A stretch of DNA of 13,852 nucleotides from Nitrospira sp. (GTDB taxonomy: Bacteria; Nitrospirota; Nitrospiria; Nitrospirales; Nitrospiraceae): assembly GCA_024998705.1 (NCBI GenBank), contig JACOEF010000185.1:1-13852 (forward strand). The letters are read 5' to 3'. Shown here in pieces: positions 5,632 through 13,852 of the stretch. The notes below the pieces were generated by a model. It was not told where the DNA came from and made no database searches. It saw only the letters and a list, made by a program, of their open reading frames with translations. Both the position numbers and the translations under genes were made by a program. Positions within the stretch are counted from its first letter, which is position 1, and every line of letters begins with the position of its first letter.

Positions 5632-5967
5632 ATGAAACGAGTGGTGATAGAAGAACTCACTCCGGGCATGATTCTCGCCAAACCGGTCACCAACAACGCA
5701 GGATTGGTGGTGCTTCCTGTCGGCGCCAAGCTGGATGAAGCGACCCTCTCCCGATTGCAGCGCTTGGAGCTGACCTCTGTCTACGTGGAGGGGGAGGCGG
5801 GTGATGCAAGCGGCAAGACGCTCGACGAGCTGGAAGCCGAGCTCGACCACCGCTTTCGACTGGTGGCCCAGGATCCGATTCAATGCCGACTTCGTGAGGC
5901 GATTCGCCTCCACCTTCGAACCACGCACGGAATCAGCGACCATCCGGAGGCGACGCCATCGGCATGA
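5632..5967 (+). CDS. Small protein like the N-terminal domain of HD-GYP proteins
   Basis: This 111-residue soluble protein begins MKRVVIEELTPGMILAKPV, then NAGLVVLPVGAKLDEATLSR and a short strand ending VYVEG. That pattern (L-x-PGM-x-LA-x-PV, then a G-x-x-L stretch) is what usually precedes the HD domain in HD-GYP cyclic-di-GMP phosphodiesterases, roughly residues 1-60. The remainder is helical and charged and has no recognised domain. The gene ends in an ATGA overlap with the HDOD gene, so the two are translationally coupled. It may be a detached sensor or partner domain acting with the HDOD protein. The molecular function is unknown. The best ribosome-binding site is AGGA about 12 nt upstream, which is distant. 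Confidence 0.75.
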   Translation: MKRVVIEELTPGMILAKPVTNNAGLVVLPVGAKLDEATLSRLQRLELTSVYVEGEAGDASGKTLDELEAELDHRFRLVAQDPIQCRLREAIRLHLRTTHGISDHPEATPSA

Positions 5968-6800
5968 ACCCTTCAGGGCACGTTGATCTCCGTCGACGCA
6001 TCGAGCAGGTCGGGGAGTTGCCGACTCTGCCGCATGTCGTCCAGAAACTCGCCTCGATGATCGGCCGCCCCAACGTGTCGGCGGAAGAAATCGGTGCGCT
6101 GATTGAAAAAGACCAGGTGCTCTCCGCCAAGGTCTTGCGACTGGCCAATTCCCCTTTTTACGGTTTTCCTTCGCGTATTGCGTCGGTCGCTCACGCGGTG
6201 GTGGTCCTGGGCTTGAACGTGGTGAAGGGCCTCACCCTCTGTGCCACGGCGTTCGACATCATGCGCAACGCCGGCATGAACGAACTCTGGCGGCACTCAC
6301 TGGGAGTCGCCATCACCGCGCACATTCTGGGCACCAAGGCGGCCATGAAGAATCCGGAGGAAGTCTTTGTCGGCGGGCTCCTGCACGACATCGGCAAAGT
6401 CGTGTTGTATGTCAAATGGCCCGATGTCGGCCAACAAATCACAGCCCAGACCCGCAAGACCTCCCGACCTCTTATGGACGCGGAGCAGGACCTGTTCGCG
6501 GTCACCCATGCCGACGTCGGAGGATGGCTCGCGACCGCCTGGCATCTCCCGATCAGCCTGAGGGAGCCTATTCTCCATCACCATACGCCGGCGGCAGCGC
6601 GGGAGGCGACGCTTCAAACCGCCATCGTGCACGTGGCGGATGTGTTGGTAAAGGGTCTCTCCTGCGGGAACCCCGGCGACAATCTGGTCCCGCCACTGTC
6701 CCATCAAGCCTGGGATCTGGTGGGCCTGGATGAGCAGAGCCTCGCCCACTGCCTGGCCCAGGCTACGGAAGAATTTCAGACCATCGACGACTACTTATGA
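5964..6800 (+). CDS. HDOD domain signalling protein
   Basis: This 278-residue protein is a single HDOD domain over about residues 10-215. The family signs are the N-terminal LPTLPHVVQKL, the KDQVLSAKVLRLANSPFYG stretch (50-67) and the LLHDIGK motif (139-145). HDOD proteins usually lack enzyme activity and act as scaffolds in signalling. Here, however, several HD-superfamily residues are present: His111, His141-Asp142, His182, His205-207 and Asp226. A metal site is therefore conceivable. It overlaps the gene before (ATGA at 5964) and the gene after (ATGA at 6797), so the three products are probably made together. Its role is inferred to be signal transfer to or from the GGDDF protein. Confidence 0.9.
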   Translation: MNPSGHVDLRRRIEQVGELPTLPHVVQKLASMIGRPNVSAEEIGALIEKDQVLSAKVLRLANSPFYGFPSRIASVAHAVVVLGLNVVKGLTLCATAFDIMRNAGMNELWRHSLGVAITAHILGTKAAMKNPEEVFVGGLLHDIGKVVLYVKWPDVGQQITAQTRKTSRPLMDAEQDLFAVTHADVGGWLATAWHLPISLREPILHHHTPAAAREATLQTAIVHVADVLVKGLSCGNPGDNLVPPLSHQAWDLVGLDEQSLAHCLAQATEEFQTIDDYL

Positions 6801-7771
6801 GCGGGGCGTCCCCAACCCGGCGCATTCTGTTGCTACACAGCGATCCGCTTGAAATCGAGCGGCTGACCGCAGCGCTGAACCGGTCTGGCTTTACGGTGGT
6901 GACAGCGGATGTCGGCCGCCTCGCCATGCATGAACTGGTGCACGATCCACCCTGCCTCGTACTCGCCGCCGAAGGCACCAACGGCCGTTCGGCAGATACA
7001 TTAGCCAAGGACTTGCGCGCCGACCCCTTCCTGGGCCGATTACCCCTGATCATCCTGGTGCGTGATATCCGGATCAACGATTTGGATTGGGCGACGCTCG
7101 GGGTGGACGACTATATCGCCGTGCCCTACCGTCCAGAGGAAGTGCCGCAACGGGTGCGTCTTTGCCTGAGCCGGCTTGAACGCTCACTGGACGCGAATCC
7201 CCTCACCAGGCTCCCCGGCAACAGCACCATTCTCCATGAAACGACCGCCCGCATCGAAAGCAGATCGCCCTTTGCCCTGGCCTACCTGGATATCGATAAC
7301 TTCAAGTCGTTCAACGACCGGTATGGGTACGTCCGCGGCGACGAAGTCCTAGTCGTCACCTGCCGGATCCTTACCACCGTGGTCAGCGAACTGACCGGCA
7401 CCGACGGATTCGTCGGCCATGTGGGCGGAGACGACTTTGTGTTTATGAGCGCCCCCTCCGCCATCGATGCGATCTGCCAGACCCTCATCAAGCGGTTCGA
7501 TCTGGTCATTCCGGACTTCTACGATCCGGAGGATCGACAGACAGGATTCATCGACTCCGTCGATCGCCGCGGTAACCACGAACGATTTCCCATCATGAGT
7601 GAGTCCATCGCCGTGGTGACGAATGAACATCGCACCATCTCCCACCCGGGAGATGTCAGCAAGATTGCCTCGGAATTGAAGAAAGTCGCCAAGAGCCGCC
7701 CCGGCAGCGCCTACGTGAAGGACAACCGGAAAACACCTTCCCCTGATTCAGGGGCTGAATCTCCCCACTAG
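6797..7771 (+). CDS. Degenerate receiver-GGDEF (GGDDF) protein, probable diguanylate cyclase
   Basis: This protein has 324 residues. Residues 8-125 are a receiver-like domain whose key residues are lost: the acceptor Asp position reads LVLAAEG (Ala57/Ala58), the acidic pocket keeps only Asp16, and the conserved Lys before Pro110 is Val109. Phosphorylation control is therefore unlikely. Residues 132-300 are a GGDEF domain with NPLTRLPGN (Asn replacing the usual Asp of DxLT), LDIDNFKSFNDRYG and the signature HVGGDDF (GGDDF at 210-214), which fits the active-site pattern GG[D/E][D/E]F. The RxxD inhibitory site is not intact (TGTD at its position). Cyclic-di-GMP synthesis is plausible but not shown. 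Start and stop overlap its HDOD neighbour by ATGA. Confidence 0.87.
   Translation: MSGASPTRRILLLHSDPLEIERLTAALNRSGFTVVTADVGRLAMHELVHDPPCLVLAAEGTNGRSADTLAKDLRADPFLGRLPLIILVRDIRINDLDWATLGVDDYIAVPYRPEEVPQRVRLCLSRLERSLDANPLTRLPGNSTILHETTARIESRSPFALAYLDIDNFKSFNDRYGYVRGDEVLVVTCRILTTVVSELTGTDGFVGHVGGDDFVFMSAPSAIDAICQTLIKRFDLVIPDFYDPEDRQTGFIDSVDRRGNHERFPIMSESIAVVTNEHRTISHPGDVSKIASELKKVAKSRPGSAYVKDNRKTPSPDSGAESPH
7740..7766. terminator. Overlapping hairpins at a convergent gene end
   Basis: Two mutually exclusive stems overlap: CCCCTG (7740-7745), loop ATT, CAGGGG (7749-7754); and GATTCA (7745-7750), loop GGGGC, TGAATC (7756-7761). A third pairing, GGGG with CCCC at 7763-7766, is possible. They lie in the last codons of the GGDDF gene. 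On the minus strand the first stem is followed by AAGGTGTTTTCC, so it could end the converging DUF3106 transcript. The T run is short. Confidence 0.4.
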
Positions 7772-7821: not shown

Positions 7822-8328
7822 TTACTGCGGCGATGACCCGCCGGGTGCCTGTCCACTACCATTCCCGCCGTACTGACGGCGAAGTTCCCGCCGATATGCG
7901 TGCCGTTCCTCCGGGGTCATGTTTTTGAATTTCTCCCGCAGCTCTTTACGCTGTTCGGGCGGGAGAGACCTGAACCACCGCCGAGCGTTCCGCACCGACT
8001 CACGCTGTTCGGGCGGGAGTTGCTGAAACTGCTGATACCGTTCGCGCAACTGTTGCTGCTGCTCCGGTGGAAGCGTCCGCCATTGTTTAAACCGTTGTTT
8101 CGCTTCTTGCCGCTCCTCCGGGGTCATCGTTCCCCACTGCTGCGCCCCGTTACGCAACCGTTGCTGTTTGCGCGGAGGCAGCTGATCCCAGTTCTCACTG
8201 AACCGTTGCAACAGTTGCTGCTCACCGGGACTCAGCTGGTTCCACGGCACACCAGCCGCATCGCCTTGAGCCCAGGCAGAGGCCACGCCACATACCAACA
8301 CGATCACACACGCGAGTAGCGCTCTCAT
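7822..8328 (-). CDS. DUF3106 repeat protein, secreted
   Basis: This 168-residue exported protein has a signal peptide ending near residue 20 (ASAWA-Q). The mature part is a run of repeats of exactly 18 residues, each beginning L/M-x-P and rich in E/Q/R: LSPGEQQ, LPPRKQQ, MTPEERQ, LPPEQQQ, LPPEQRE, LPPEQRK, MTPEERH, with a Trp or Phe near each end. Eighteen residues equal five helical turns, so a helical hairpin or coil is likely. The L-x-P-E-Q-R units recall the LTxxQ motifs of Spy/CpxP-type periplasmic chaperones, but the resemblance is not proof of kinship. It is the last gene of the sigma-factor operon; its ATG overlaps the stop of the preceding gene (ATGA). Betaproteobacteria have the same order, sigma, DUF3619, DUF3106. 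A Gly-rich tail ends the protein. Role: probably an envelope stress or folding factor (inference). Confidence 0.85.
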   Translation of the reverse strand: MRALLACVIVLVCGVASAWAQGDAAGVPWNQLSPGEQQLLQRFSENWDQLPPRKQQRLRNGAQQWGTMTPEERQEAKQRFKQWRTLPPEQQQQLRERYQQFQQLPPEQRESVRNARRWFRSLPPEQRKELREKFKNMTPEERHAYRRELRRQYGGNGSGQAPGGSSPQ

Positions 8329-8651
8329 GGTCCGGTCTGCATCCTCATCGGATCACGTGGTACGGTCGAACTGCGGTGCTGTTCACTGCCTTTCGATCGT
8401 GGAGAAGGGCTTGTACGCTGCCCCGGCACATCGGTTTTCGATTTCGGACGATGGTCTACGGAAAGATCTTCAGCAACTTGAAAGGGATCCACCCAGCGGC
8501 CGGAGTCGTTCTGCCAGGATCCCAGGAAGTCGAGAAAATCGGCCTCGATCTCGTCCGGGCTTGGCGCCGGATCCGGAGCGGCCTGAACCAGTGAGGCCAC
8601 CAGACACACACTGAGCCACAGCCCTCGCTTAGCCGGTCGCAGAAGTGCCAT
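8325..8651 (-). CDS. Small exported protein of the sigma operon
   Basis: This 108-residue protein of unknown function has a signal peptide ([12 protein letters not shown], hydrophobic core, VQA-A at about residue 24). The mature N-terminus is acidic, with DEIEADFLDFLGSW and then GRWVDPFQ, a block that looks conserved. I recall similar 'LEFLG..W..WVDP' proteins beside DUF3106 genes, but I cannot check this here. The last 45 residues are basic, rich in Pro, Ser and Arg, and probably disordered. The start overlaps the end of the DUF3619-like gene by 23 bases and the stop overlaps the DUF3106 start by ATGA, so it is clearly part of the operon. Another frame runs through the same bases, but the signal peptide and overlaps favour this one. 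Confidence 0.72.
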   Translation of the reverse strand: MALLRPAKRGLWLSVCLVASLVQAAPDPAPSPDEIEADFLDFLGSWQNDSGRWVDPFQVAEDLSVDHRPKSKTDVPGQRTSPSPRSKGSEQHRSSTVPRDPMRMQTGP

Positions 8652-8988
8652 CGGCCAGCCAATCGTAAAATTCGAGGTCTTCTGACAATTCGATATTTTC
8701 AGGCGATTGCATCAGCTCAAGATCTTCGAGCAAGAGAGGAGAGTGGCTTGCTCCGTTGAATGGCCCCATCCATATGGTGACGGCCAGCGCCGTCATCGCC
8801 GCCAACGCCACACCGCCGGCCCACCGGAACCAGGGGTGCCGCCGGCGCGAAGCGGCGTCCAACGCGCTGAGCCGGGCGCGCTGCACCCGCAGCACGGTCT
8901 TGTGATTGAGATCCTGCACACTCCGATCGAGAAGCCCCTTGGCCGCCATCGCCAGCGGGTCTGGATGTTCGTCCGATCGTTCGTTCAT
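8629..8988 (-). CDS. DUF3619-like membrane protein, possible anti-sigma factor
   Basis: This 119-residue protein has a cytoplasmic N-terminal region, one membrane helix (about residues 52-74, [18 protein letters not shown]) and a short periplasmic tail. The tail ends in acidic, conserved-looking [18 protein letters not shown], a pattern typical of DUF3619 proteins encoded next to ECF-type sigma factors. Ahead of the helix are conserved-looking residues around [14 protein letters not shown]. It has no zinc-binding HxxxCxxC motif, so it is not a ZAS-type anti-sigma factor. Topology and position make an anti-sigma or signal-relay role plausible but unproven. Its ATG at 8988 overlaps the sigma stop (ATGA), which decides the start; the frame also extends 26 codons upstream, but that would overlap the sigma gene without support. 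Confidence 0.8.
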
Positions 8989-9602
8989 GGCCAATGCGCT
9001 CCCAATCGTTTTCGCAACACCTGTAACGCTCGAAACAAATGGGTTTTGACGCTCCCCTGAGAACATCCCATCGCCTGAGCCGTTTGTGCGACGTCTAGTT
9101 CTTCCCAGATGCGCAACAGAAACGCCTGCTGCTGTCGCAGCGGGAGGGCGCGTAACGCCACCTCTAGCTCCGCACAGGCACGTTTACGCTGTAATTCCTC
9201 GTCCGGCGCCGAGGCGGTCGCATCGGCGATTTGTTCCAGCCGATCCTCTCCCTCCTCCTCATCCTGAGAGGCGCGAAAAAACTCCCGCACACGATTACGC
9301 ACCCTCTCCCGACGATACCAGTCGCGAATACGGCTCTGCAGAATACAGTGGAACAGCGGACCCCATTCCGCTTCGGCCCGCTCACCATACTTGTGCGCCA
9401 GCTTCAACATCGCATCCTGCACGAGATCCAGCGCCTCATCCTCATTCCCCGTGGCGATATGTGCCATGCGAAATGCACGCCGCTCAATCCCTGCCAGGAA
9501 CCGGTCCAATGCCTGGGTTCGATCCAGTGATCCCACCCTCTCACCCAGGCACAGACTGCCTGGCTGCCCCTCTATGGCGATCCGGGAATGCCAGCCGCTC
9601 AT
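8985..9602 (-). CDS. ECF-type RNA polymerase sigma factor
   Basis: This 205-residue protein has the two ECF regions: sigma-2 at about residues 30-95 ([14 protein letters not shown], then [19 protein letters not shown]) and sigma-4 at about 145-200 ([35 protein letters not shown] and [13 protein letters not shown]). Region 4 carries a helix-turn-helix that binds the -35 element. The linker is acidic. The start taken is the ATG at 9602, which overlaps the stop of an upstream small ORF as ATGA and has purine-rich sequence just before it. A GTG at 9608 in the same frame, or a GTG at 9536 that would remove 23 residues, cannot be ruled out. It is encoded first in a four- or five-gene operon with the DUF3619-like and DUF3106 genes, as in Betaproteobacteria. 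The membrane-linked neighbours suggest that the envelope is sensed. Confidence 0.9.
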
Positions 9603-9745
9603 TCCCACCTACCCCTGTCTACCCGGGGACCATCAGGATGGATTCGATTTTCAACTCGAATAACCTCGAAATCAAGGGGCGGCAAGGCATGCTCCTTGGC
9701 CTCGCCGAACATTCCCGCGTCCACCAACACGTGTCGTCGGTACAT
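9599..9745 (-). CDS. Possible 48-residue small ORF ahead of the sigma factor
   Basis: A frame from the ATG at 9745 to a TGA at 9599-9601 encodes 48 residues beginning [20 protein letters not shown] and ending VDRGRWE. Its stop overlaps the sigma ATG (ATGA), the same junction used by the three later genes of this operon. A GGGGGGAG run lies about 11 nt before the ATG, and an in-frame TAG lies just upstream, so the ORF is self-contained. The first half has strong third-position GC, the second half less so. It has no signal peptide, membrane segment or recognised motif. It could be a leader peptide for coupled translation of the sigma gene, a small regulator or a chance frame. Confidence 0.45.
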
Positions 9746-9917: not shown

Positions 9918-12900
9918 CTACTTGGATTTTTCGCTCTCGCCAGGGCGGTTTCCGTCAGGCCATGCGACCGAAGGAATCTTCGCGACCACGTCCAATCGAT
10001 CCGAGGCTTCGTTGTCCTTCAAATCCTGCCCGACACTGTAGAGTATCCCCTTCTGCTTATTCACCAGCATGGGAAACCCGGTGAAGGGGTCGTACACACC
10101 TTGCCCGGCCTTGGCAATCCTGGTCATCAGGTCTTGCCCCGGCGAGGTCCGTCGTAACCAGGCCTGCAAGGATGCCAGCCGTAACCGGGCATCCGTTTCC
10201 ATCACTCGCCCGGCGTACAGTTCCCATGTGGGAAGGGGATCGAGCCCGACGAGGCTCTCAATGGGATTCACGAATATGTCTCCCAGCCCGTACGGCGGAG
10301 TACGCACAAACTGAGACTGTTTCGGTAAGTCGGTATACTGTCCTTCCACGGCCGCCTTCTCAGCCGCTTCATAATATTGCGCATAGGCATTAAACCGGCG
10401 TTGCTTCGGCAGCGGCAACATGGCGGCGATGGCGCCGTAGAACGGTCTCGTCTCGGACCGGTCCTCACGCAGCGCCTCGTCCAGGGTCTTTGTGGCCAGC
10501 ACGAACTGGCTCTGCATCGGCCATCGGACAGACTGTTCAGCCTGTTCGAGCGGCCGGGAGAGTTTCGCCAATCGGCTCACGAATCGATCCTCGAGCTCCG
10601 GCCGCACCAAGAGCCCCCCCACGACCATGATGTCGTCATTCATTGCCGCGCTGGCCAACATTTTCACCGGCATCGTCTTGGCCTGCCCCAACACGGTCCG
10701 CCAGGCCGTGAGGTCGGTCTCGAGCCGGGTGACTCCGGTTTCGACATCTTGCGCGAATCCCTCAGCCACATAGAGTCGATGGGCATAGAGAATCAGCCCG
10801 CAGTTCGGAGTGATGGATTGCCCATATCCCCAATCTTCAAAGGGTTTGGACAGCCACTGCTGGTACCGGCCCATGCTCACTTCGGCCCTGGAGACCCATG
10901 CTTTGATGCCCGTCGCTTCTGCACGCATCTGCGACGCCGGGTCACTCATCTTCATCCACTTGCCCATGGTCTCGGCCGATGCCCCCTGTTCCCCGCCGGA
11001 CGACTGTTCTTCCGCGCTCAAGCAGGTATGGGCAACCGCGCGATCGGCGCCTTCTGCCCGCCGGTCTATCCCGGCCTGTACAGGATCCTGTGCCGCTGCA
11101 GCTCCGAATCCAAGGAGGAGGATATACCCGTTCTTGTGGGAATCCTGTAGCGTGTGCTGCGGTACCGAGGTCATGTTGCGATAGGCCGCATTGGGCTGCT
11201 CGTCCAAGACGAGCCAGGTCAGCGCAACGGCACCGATCACCCCGGCCATGAGACCCAGCGTGAGGCCCACCAGTGCCAGCACCATGACAACCAATGAGTG
11301 GGTCGTCGACACACCGGCTCCGACGAGAGACGCCACCACTTCGCCCATTCGGCGCCACACGCCGGCCGTGACCGGCTGGCTCACCTTGGAACGAACCACA
11401 GACGCGTCCGCAGCAACGGGTGCGGAACTCTTCGGTGGATCGAATGAGTGGTCGGTCACCACAACGGTGGCGTCCTGTGTTTCAACGGGCAACGAGGACG
11501 CACCAAGTGGCGGTTCATCGGGGACCGTCGCCGAGGCCTGCACGTCAGGGGACTCAGCGGGAGCGGGCTCGACCGGCTTCTTGAGCCAGCGTGTCAGCAT
11601 ATTCCCGACTCCAGCACTCGAAGTCGGTTTTGACGATGAGTCATCCCAAATAATGCGCAGGCCTTCACCCGCGGCAGACACAGTCGCAGACGGGGTCGTC
11701 GGAGTAATCGCCGGCTCACCAGAAGGAGCCACAGATTCAACGGGCGCCGCCACTGCCGGTGCAGTGACGACCGAGTCTTGCATCGGCTCGATCATCGTCA
11801 AACCCGGCACTTCCACTGGCGTCACGATCGGCTCAGGAATCGGTGAAGGTGAAACTGATTCCTGACCCGCCCCTGCCGAGACGGGCGCGGTCTCCACTGT
11901 CGCCACCACGGAATCAACTATCGAAGTCGTCACATCTTCAGAGATCCCAGCCACCGCTGTCACAGCCGGTTCCTGTTCCACCGACGCAGGCTTCGGCTCC
12001 GATGCCGGCAGCACCTCCTGAACCATCGGCGACAACATCGCCATCGGCTGAACTTCTTCGACCGGCTTCTCGTCTATCAGCGAGGACGAGATGGAGGCCG
12101 CAGGGCTCTCCACGCCCATCTCTGTGACCGGCGGAATAGGCAGCTGCTGCGCGGAGACGACCACGGCCGGTTCCTGAGCAGGAGACGTCACGTCGGTGCC
12201 GTCCGTAAGGGCGAACTCCGTCACCAGGTTGGTGGAGACAAGCGCAGGCTCGACCGACACCGTCGCCGCGACCGCTTCATCGCCGGCCAGACGAAAGGGA
12301 GGCTCCACCGCCTCAGCGATCGTCACCTCGGAGGGTGGTTGCGCTGCAACTGGAGCATCGAAAGTCGGCCCCTCGGCCGCGCTGTACGCCTCTACGGGAA
12401 TATGAATCGGATGTTCACGCGCGATGATCGGCCTGTCCGGAGACAGAATATGCAATTCCGAGTCTGTAGGAGGAATCGGTTCAACAGGGCGATCAACGAT
12501 CGTCTCACCTACACGAGCCTCTGCAGAAACCGTAGCCTCAGGAACCTGAGGTGCCTCCGGCAGAAGCAGGGTGGAATCCTGGGCTGCCACGACCGTCTCG
12601 GCAGAAACCGACCCGAACTCAGGCTCCGGCTCCTGCCGTAGAATCGTGACCTCGTCGACTTCGATCTGTTCCCATGGCATGGGTGCCGACAAGGATGGGG
12701 CGGCCCCTGCCTGATGGGCCAAATGATCCGACACCTCCGTCTCAAATAACGAGACCTCTGTCTCTTCCGGCTCGGCCGGAGCCATGAGGAGGCCGGCCGA
12801 CGGCTCTGGGACAACCGGATCGGCAACAGGCGGCTGCTCCTTGCCCGACAACGTCTGCGCGGGGGCAGGAGAAGCCTGCATGGCCGTGACTGCCGCAAGA

Positions 12901-13852
12901 CTTTCTTCCCACGGGAGTCCCGACGAAATGATGTCAGAGGAACGTGGTGAAGGGGAGGACTCCGTGGCCGCCCCTGCCTCGATCAGCTGGTCCTCAGCGG
13001 GAGACTCACTGGCCGTTTTGGCCTCGACCGTTCCGTGCACCAGCACCGTTTCGGCGCTGGGAGCCACAACACCCCTGTCTTCTTCAATCTGGTCCCAGGG
13101 CATCGGGGCGGGAGTGGTCGGCGCTTTGGCAATCGGGACACTACTGGCCTGTGCGAGCACTTCGATCGTCGGCGTGGCGGTTTCTACCACCGGCGGGAGG
13201 ATCTCCACCTCCCCGGACTGCAGCAGAGCGACGGCCTCCGGCACCTCAGGCTCGGATCGAGGCGCTTCAGCAAAGACCGATGCGGCGCTCCCCGGCGGCG
13301 GTATTTCCGTCCCGACCTCTTCAATCTGGTCCCAAGGCATCGGGGCGGGGCTTGCCGGCGGTTGAGCGATCGGATGACTGCTGGTAGCCGGCAGAAGTAA
13401 TTCAATCGTGGGAACTATCAGCTCTGCCGCCGGCGACGGAGACTCGACCTCAGCCGACGGTGGAGAGACGAGAGCGGCGGCGATGGAGTCCGGCGCCTCT
13501 GAGAGCTGAGCCTCCGGTGTGGCGGTCTCTTCGACGTGCTCCCGAGGCATTGACAGAGGGGTGACCGGCACTTGGGCAATTGGATCGTGGCCGGCTTGCG
13601 CCGCCACTTCGCTCGTGGCTGGACCCACTTCAGCAGCCAGTGAAGCAACCGGCTCGGCCGGCTCGATCGAAGCGGAGGCCAGAGTGTCGGTGGAAAGCTT
13701 CGATTGATCGGACTGAATCGGCTCTAGATCCTGAGTCGCCGATACTTCGACGGGATCCGCTCGCAGAGGAACTTTCGACTCCACGGACAGCCACGTCGAG
13801 AGCGTGGTCGCCGGTCCATCCTCTGGCTTGCCCTGCCCCAGACCATCCTCGC
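9918..13852 (-). CDS. Very long membrane protein with PW-motif repeats, 5' end missing
   Basis: This frame is open to the right edge, so the true N-terminus lies outside. From an in-frame GTG at 13784 it has 1288 residues, with 22 more open codons upstream that also read as coding. Residues up to about 800 are low-complexity, rich in Pro, Ala, Glu, Val, Ser and Thr, and probably disordered. They contain repeats with the motif APMPWDQIEE (around 150, 229 and 370, and a degenerate GLPWEES at 289) and a separate IIWDDSSSKP near 710. A single membrane helix lies at about 830-862 (SLVVMVLALVGLTLGLMAGV); Arg and Lys before it suggest the long part is cytoplasmic. The C-terminal 420 residues are globular-looking with many Trp and Tyr, and end near YDPFTGFPMLV and ILYSVGQDLKDN, which resemble a motif of pseudopilin-like proteins. 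I do not recognise the family. An assembly scaffold or tether is one possibility. Confidence 0.85.
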   Translation of the reverse strand, partial: EDGLGQGKPEDGPATTLSTWLSVESKVPLRADPVEVSATQDLEPIQSDQSKLSTDTLASASIEPAEPVASLAAEVGPATSEVAAQAGHDPIAQVPVTPLSMPREHVEETATPEAQLSEAPDSIAAALVSPPSAEVESPSPAAELIVPTIELLLPATSSHPIAQPPASPAPMPWDQIEEVGTEIPPPGSAASVFAEAPRSEPEVPEAVALLQSGEVEILPPVVETATPTIEVLAQASSVPIAKAPTTPAPMPWDQIEEDRGVVAPSAETVLVHGTVEAKTASESPAEDQLIEAGAATESSPSPRSSDIISSGLPWEESLAAVTAMQASPAPAQTLSGKEQPPVADPVVPEPSAGLLMAPAEPEETEVSLFETEVSDHLAHQAGAAPSLSAPMPWEQIEVDEVTILRQEPEPEFGSVSAETVVAAQDSTLLLPEAPQVPEATVSAEARVGETIVDRPVEPIPPTDSELHILSPDRPIIAREHPIHIPVEAYSAAEGPTFDAPVAAQPPSEVTIAEAVEPPFRLAGDEAVAATVSVEPALVSTNLVTEFALTDGTDVTSPAQEPAVVVSAQQLPIPPVTEMGVESPAASISSSLIDEKPVEEVQPMAMLSPMVQEVLPASEPKPASVEQEPAVTAVAGISEDVTTSIVDSVVATVETAPVSAGAGQESVSPSPIPEPIVTPVEVPGLTMIEPMQDSVVTAPAVAAPVESVAPSGEPAITPTTPSATVSAAGEGLRIIWDDSSSKPTSSAGVGNMLTRWLKKPVEPAPAESPDVQASATVPDEPPLGASSLPVETQDATVVVTDHSFDPPKSSAPVAADASVVRSKVSQPVTAGVWRRMGEVVASLVGAGVSTTHSLVVMVLALVGLTLGLMAGVIGAVALTWLVLDEQPNAAYRNMTSVPQHTLQDSHKNGYILLLGFGAAAAQDPVQAGIDRRAEGADRAVAHTCLSAEEQSSGGEQGASAETMGKWMKMSDPASQMRAEATGIKAWVSRAEVSMGRYQQWLSKPFEDWGYGQSITPNCGLILYAHRLYVAEGFAQDVETGVTRLETDLTAWRTVLGQAKTMPVKMLASAAMNDDIMVVGGLLVRPELEDRFVSRLAKLSRPLEQAEQSVRWPMQSQFVLATKTLDEALREDRSETRPFYGAIAAMLPLPKQRRFNAYAQYYEAAEKAAVEGQYTDLPKQSQFVRTPPYGLGDIFVNPIESLVGLDPLPTWELYAGRVMETDARLRLASLQAWLRRTSPGQDLMTRIAKAGQGVYDPFTGFPMLVNKQKGILYSVGQDLKDNEASDRLDVVAKIPSVAWPDGNRPGESEKSK
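12657..13559 (-). repeat. Degenerate coding repeats carrying a PMPWDQIEE motif
   Basis: Copies within the large protein are at 13317-13346 and 13080-13109 (near-identical, motif APMPWDQIEE), 12657-12686 (APMPWEQIEV), a shorter one at 12900-12920 (GLPWEES) and a decayed one at 13527-13559 (LSMPREHVEE). The Trp residues are 79, 62 and 79 apart. At DNA level, 13081-13112 and 13318-13349 match at 31 of 32 bases with a 237-bp spacing, which is the clearest evidence of duplication. Sequence before the motif also aligns between copies 2 and 3 (PTIELLLPATSSHPIAQ and PTIEVLAQASSVPIAK). Confidence 0.7.

Follow-up and report, generated by a model that had tools for sequence, protein, structure and literature searches.

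What does a long membrane protein do with a disordered chain of repeated tryptophan motifs? The question is raised by a 13,852-nucleotide stretch of DNA, analysed here as a whole (the window), which is one contig (JACOEF010000185.1) of a draft Nitrospira sp. assembly (GCA_024998705.1; 4.16 Mb, 1028 contigs, completeness 88.8%, contamination 4.9%) and is of Nitrospira type judging by its named relatives. On its minus strand, a frame at 9918–13850 encodes 1310 residues without a stop and reaches the contig edge; an earlier note, made from the sequence alone, described the product as unlike any known family and proposed that its motifs are docking sites for a partner protein. Nitrospira oxidise nitrite and also carry out complete oxidation of ammonia, and to our knowledge the organisation of their cell envelope is little described. 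The reading that we favour, with a probability of roughly 45%, is that the gene encodes a lineage-specific membrane scaffold whose motifs are docked by the groove of a tetratricopeptide repeat (TPR) domain, chiefly its own, in the manner of a FimV/HubP-like hub. Such a scaffold may link the cell interior to the envelope in nitrite-oxidising Nitrospira.

Full-length same-genus relatives are 1494–1640 residues long, with one of 1185. The closest among the matches listed (P0002, 1580 residues; the lists comprised the best 120 of 734 matches and the best 120 of 207 matches) is 96% identical over the C-terminal query and exceeds the window frame by 270 residues, placing the true start beyond the window, as had been anticipated. 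The additional N-terminal part comprises a basic tail (net +9 per 30 residues) and a TPR domain. In this assembly, the N-terminal TPR piece of the gene was located at one end of a separate contig (G000:C314, locus L164); it is 91% identical to an orthologue over 152 residues and contains a single in-frame TAG within the basic tail, which may be an assembly error or a strain variant; the two pieces are unjoined. The order of the protein is basic tail, TPR domain, acidic disordered linker, one helix and C-terminal domain.

The linker (11301–13850, minus strand, as are all features of this gene) spans 850 residues in the window, is rich in alanine (14%), proline (14%), glutamate (11%) and serine, and has a net charge of −100; in an AlphaFold2 model of the orthologue L085, its predicted local distance difference test score (pLDDT) is mostly below 50. 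It is followed by a predicted membrane helix (11205–11297, residues 2–32 of a modelled 460-residue piece) and a mostly helical domain of about 430 residues (9921–11204), the whole piece being modelled with a pLDDT of 87 and a predicted template modelling score of 0.87. The low-complexity stretch of about 800 residues, the single helix and the large globular domain reported from the sequence alone are all borne out. Of 50 long forms, 46 have more lysine and arginine on the N-terminal than on the C-terminal side of the helix, and two have as many on either side; the C-terminal domain is probably periplasmic, with the linker and TPR probably cytoplasmic. Cysteines 93 (11022–11024) and 167 (10800–10802) of the modelled piece are conserved together: each site, or an alignment column no more than three away, holds a cysteine in 51 of 51 long forms, versus 1 of 20 and none of 20 short forms (the membrane helix and C-terminal domain without the rest), respectively, and they probably form a disulfide in the periplasmic domain.

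The 1310-residue frame matched no Pfam family at E ≤ 0.1, the family as a whole matched no Pfam or NCBIfam model other than TPR, and the C-terminal domain, which the earlier note had proposed checking against known families, gave no convincing match in Pfam or, as a model, among solved structures in the PDB. A literature search returned no description of the protein in titles or abstract starts. The C-terminal domain was present in 57 of the 100 genomes searched: the own one, 26 of 28 others in the genus, 28 of 32 in the family and, with weak matches only (E about 3e-4 to 4e-4), 2 of 39 in the order. A search of genome contigs, from which the best 80 of 101 relatives were kept, gave 79 loci, all with Nitrospir- in the title; alignment A2 included 70 of these, with L119 and L144 (stops inside the match) and L110, L116, L124, L130, L136, L137 and L138 (partial or low) excluded, and alignment A4 excluded L091 (unknown residues). 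Contrary to a strict lineage restriction, a 49% identical relative (P0184) is filed under the cyanobacterium Petrachloros mirabilis, which may represent contamination of that record. Within the genomes and lists searched, the family is essentially restricted to Nitrospira and its kin.

Pattern search and orthologue comparison identified the exact MPW[DE]Q[IV]E motif three times in the window linker: MPWDQIE at 13320–13340 and 13083–13103, and MPWEQIE at 12660–12680, which in a codon alignment has the lowest proportion of nonsynonymous differences (pN) of five copies in the genus. Even one exact copy occurred in none of 20,000 shuffles of the linker residues. The fourth tryptophan site in the window is a divergent SSGLPWEES within the variant motif SSGLPWEESLAAV at 12888–12926 (orthologue comparison and blind scan), for which most genus orthologues have SSGL[ST]W[ED][ED]ILAAV, a predicted helix. 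The tryptophan has been lost from a decayed copy, MPREHVEE, at 13527–13550 (read from the translation, position counted by hand), where P0002 has MPREQVE and, at about the same place, several genus members have MPWDQVE. The earlier count of four motifs and one decayed copy (MPREHVE) stands if the divergent SSGLPWEES is included, but not for exact copies, of which there are three.

Same-genus orthologues encode one to five exact copies at varied spacing, and mostly also the SSGL[ST]W[ED][ED]ILAAV and [IL][LVI]W[DE][DN]-type sites. Members from other genera have zero to three exact copies; many carry an FSWN..FDGAWKF-like sequence where the second motif would be, L111 has three like MPWDEV copies spaced 71 residues apart, and in L036, L039, L096 and L112 the motif is present solely in variant form (MPWEH or LPWEQ, for example). 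At the DNA level, the exact pattern gave 42 hits in 15 of 24 genomes (own and 23 chosen genomes), all inside this gene or, for five genomes, inside the stretch fetched around it, while the reversed motif pattern gave none in the same set. Within these 24 genomes, the exact motif is confined to this gene.

Purifying selection on the motifs is strong, while the linker around them drifts. Codons were aligned for 25 sequences from the genus, the window among them but not P0002. In this alignment the TPR had a summed pairwise ratio of pN to its synonymous counterpart (pN/pS) of 0.071; the ratio was 0.110 when the five motifs were pooled (0.031–0.198 singly), and the variant motif had 0.103, the C-terminal domain 0.225 and the remaining linker 0.673, with pS similar throughout these region groups (0.56–0.74). 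By pN, the five motifs fall in the lowest 0–2.8% of 814 linker windows. A blind conservation scan of the linker returned chiefly the tryptophan motifs, together with SSGLSWEEILAAVAAMQ, ILWDDSSS, NMLTRWLKK, a pair of stretches beside the membrane helix, VTIPRQEPEPE (just past the last motif) and SELTSSGL (bordering the second motif). Two of the additional conserved sites map to the window, namely NMLTRWLKK at 11577–11603 (pN/pS 0.094 for TRWLKK) and GLRIIWDDSS at 11634–11663 (0.273 for LRILWDDS). The earlier suggestion of selection on the motifs with drifting linkers agrees with the ratios of 0.110 versus 0.673 at similar pS, and the retention of motifs in orthologues with varying linkers fits the idea that a disordered chain presents docking sites.

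An obvious candidate partner is the protein's own N-terminal TPR domain, which lies beyond the window and was not visible to the earlier note. Its Pfam matches cover residues 37–147 of P0002, with helices reaching about residue 180 in an orthologue model; TPR_19 was above the cut-off in P0002, P0038 and P0060, and TPR_16 in P0074, while both were under the cut-off in P0107. The model block has a pLDDT of 84–97, and a PDB search with it gave 37 matches at E ≤ 0.001, MamA among them; the matched chains, among the matches listed, are of TPR type. By sequence model and by fold, the N-terminal domain is a TPR. When the TPR and linker of L085 were modelled together by AlphaFold2 (699 residues, 31 sequences), few linker segments reached a pLDDT of 50, one block averaging 79, and five of the six tryptophan sites (W367, W436, W537, W599 and W678) fell within segments at or above that value.

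Motif and TPR were compared across the 41 of 50 long-form loci with an intact TPR match, five of which are motif-free (L105, L109, L114, L117 and L120). Positions conserved in at least 95% of the 36 motif-bearing members are densest in helices 3 (12 of 13) and 5 (12 of 14), compared with 10/18, 8/14 and 8/17 in helices 1, 2 and 4, and 6/14, 6/17 and 2/12 in helices 6, 7 and 8. The mean ratio of TPR to C-terminal domain divergence was 0.35–0.56 for each of 18 motif-bearing relatives, versus 0.64 for L105 and 0.90 for L109, the two motif-free members that have close relatives with motifs. L117 also falls below the trend: its TPR identity is 0.59 at a C-terminal domain identity of 0.45, a level at which the TPRs of motif-bearing pairs are at least 0.64 identical, and L120 lies beyond the compared range. 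In addition, Trp96 of the TPR is invariant in all 36 motif-bearing members and changed in three of the five motif-free ones (L109, L117, to arginine, and L120). Though the numbers are small, these patterns suggest that the TPR is constrained because of the motifs. In L117, a different repeated tryptophan motif was observed, PVHETWTPP, in three copies at 31-residue spacing (upstream frame residues ~444–520).

Several points weigh against this reading. The exact motif is not universal, because 5 of 41 loci with an intact TPR are motif-free and some others have variants only; the expectation that orthologues keep the motif while linker length and sequence vary was upheld for most members but failed for these. 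The motif-free members are only five and not independent, L109 may simply be decaying, L114 has a TPR on the normal trend, Trp96 is kept in L105 and L114, and single motif-bearing pairs reach a divergence ratio of 0.74, so that the 0.64 of L105 is inside their range. The assignment of helices 3 and 5 to the groove follows the usual arrangement of TPR helices rather than coordinates, and the same arrangement would place helices 1 and 7 there too. The L085 model was judged by pLDDT, which does not reveal docking on the TPR; W223, in the first motif, has a pLDDT below 50, segment 479–489 exceeds 50 yet is motif-free, and raised pLDDT at conserved columns could have other causes. The pairing of TPR and motif is one that we infer. 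Finally, the long protein is dispensable, because a 97% complete genome (G024) had no match to the C-terminal domain or, at high identity, to this TPR.

On the favoured reading, the basic tail, TPR and long acidic linker would lie in the cytoplasm, the single helix would cross the inner membrane, and the helical domain, likely disulfide-bearing, would anchor or sense something in the envelope from the periplasm. The PMPW[DE]Q[IV]E repeats would serve as docking peptides, read most likely by a TPR groove and chiefly that of the protein itself, either in cis, by folding back, or in trans, by joining neighbouring molecules, and several motifs per chain could yield a multivalent, switchable network. 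If the motifs are indeed read by the TPR, a bacterial reader of short linear motifs and its peptide would occur on one chain. A more specific version, which we hold only tentatively, is a self-reading hub in which the TPR reads the protein's own tryptophan-acidic peptides, a fold-back or network switch carries a signal between periplasm and cytoplasm, and the overall plan is that of FimV in mirror image.

Known systems provide partial parallels. FimV/HubP proteins similarly cross the membrane once, have one domain in the periplasm and a TPR domain at one end, and carry a long acidic stretch in the cytoplasm, which in HubP is described as largely unstructured and repeat-bearing (PMC12918733). 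However, the Nitrospira protein has its TPR at the N-terminus and its predicted periplasmic domain at the C-terminus, and a tryptophan motif takes the place of the acidic repeat. An acidic disordered region, a terminal TPR and one membrane helix are thus all found, in reversed order and with predicted location. LysM was not found in Pfam scans of the 1310-residue frame (E ≤ 0.1) or of five full-length relatives, and no FimV model was matched in an NCBIfam scan of P0002 at E ≤ 0.01. Genome-wide, FimV_core was found in none of 10 genomes, its controls likewise giving none, and FimV_Cterm gave weak sub-cut-off hits outside this gene in 2 of 10 (controls 1 of 14, sub-cut-off). By analogy, the protein may work like a FimV/HubP-type hub turned round, offering a mirror-image analogue, but it gave no LysM match and is not a member of that family.

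The motif–TPR pairing would resemble, in mechanism only, the kinesin light chain system, which also unites a TPR domain with short tryptophan-acidic peptides; there, such peptides are reported to occupy the concave face of the TPR domain and to free an LFP motif bound in cis (PMC6224480). Kinesin light chain is eukaryotic and unrelated as a whole protein, and its motif resides on the cargo, whereas that of the Nitrospira protein is on the same chain; a self-reading hub, if true, would be a bacterial counterpart to the way in which kinesin light chain is regulated. MamA is likewise a bacterial TPR scaffold protein but has 217 residues and is not known to have a comparable linker or periplasmic domain. 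It self-assembles, surrounds magnetosome vesicles and is listed without a membrane helix (PMC3905215).

The alternative that survives best, possible though on balance doubtful, is that the motifs dock another protein, either a separate TPR protein or an unrelated client, and that the TPR of the long protein itself has some other ligand. One such TPR protein, encoded separately and probably soluble (frames of 585–672 residues, L157–L163), whose module is 38–42% identical to the TPR of the long protein, was found in 7 of 10 genomes searched (E 1.6e-32 to 4.4e-36) and could be the real reader, a further point against docking by the own TPR. Many motif copies on a membrane-tethered linker would also suit client recruitment, and in HubP the TPR, not the linker, is regarded as the principal interface for clients (PMC12918733). 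However, the separate protein also occurs in two genomes that gave no long-form match (G002 and G024) and is therefore untied to the motif; it has glycine, valine, glutamate, aspartate or proline at the place of Trp96 (aligned by eye); and in two cases motif loss was accompanied by TPR drift on the same chain. Its gene lies near lptF/lptG at the one locus examined (L157).

It is less likely still that the chain follows a sticker-and-spacer plan with the motifs as generic stickers, mediating self-association or membrane contact without a dedicated groove. The acidic disordered linker, the spaced aromatic sites and a copy number of zero to five exact motifs are consistent with this, but D/E, Q and I/V are also conserved at fixed places beside the tryptophan, and simple stickers would require less. 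That the copies are alike merely through recent duplication or gene conversion, and are functionless, is highly improbable: some do lie within related longer units (PTIEVLA..SSHPIA.AP..PAPMPWDQIEE) and L111 has its evenly spaced copies, but motif pS is as high as elsewhere (0.74 together, 0.54–0.86 singly) with low pN, which contradicts recent duplication, and the 25-codon flanks of the same motifs have a pN/pS of 0.47–0.78.

Neighbouring genes were counted at 53 long-form and 21 short-form loci (L124, L130 and L136–L138 excluded). The recurring neighbour that had been sought for the long form was found, with AIM24/TIGR00266 proteins at 35 of 53 loci and M48 peptidases at 33 of 53 in the flanks retrieved, many loci being cut by contig ends. 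Short forms are roughly 470–640 residues long, often ~490 (L044–L049; L122–L148), and are flanked by a BtuF-like binding protein at 18 of 21 loci and by a FecCD permease at 17 of 21. In one such cluster (L046), CobQ and PduO were above the cut-off and BtuB-, BtuC- and BtuF-like proteins under it. Because these neighbours include BtuF-like, FecCD, CobQ, PduO and BtuB-like proteins, the short-form cluster looks like one for vitamin B12 uptake and salvage, and gene context suggests that the C-terminal domain may be linked to corrinoid uptake.

In the window itself, the region 3′ of the long gene (7822–9608, minus strand) encodes, directly downstream, an ECF sigma factor (8985–9608), then a small protein (8629–9066) with a weak DUF3619 match under the cut-off, another small open reading frame and a DUF3106 protein. 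A comparable set of genes adjoins the long gene in L035 and L042. On the plus strand, 5964–7771 encodes an HDOD protein followed by a GGDEF-domain protein, whose receiver-like N-terminus was under the cut-off.

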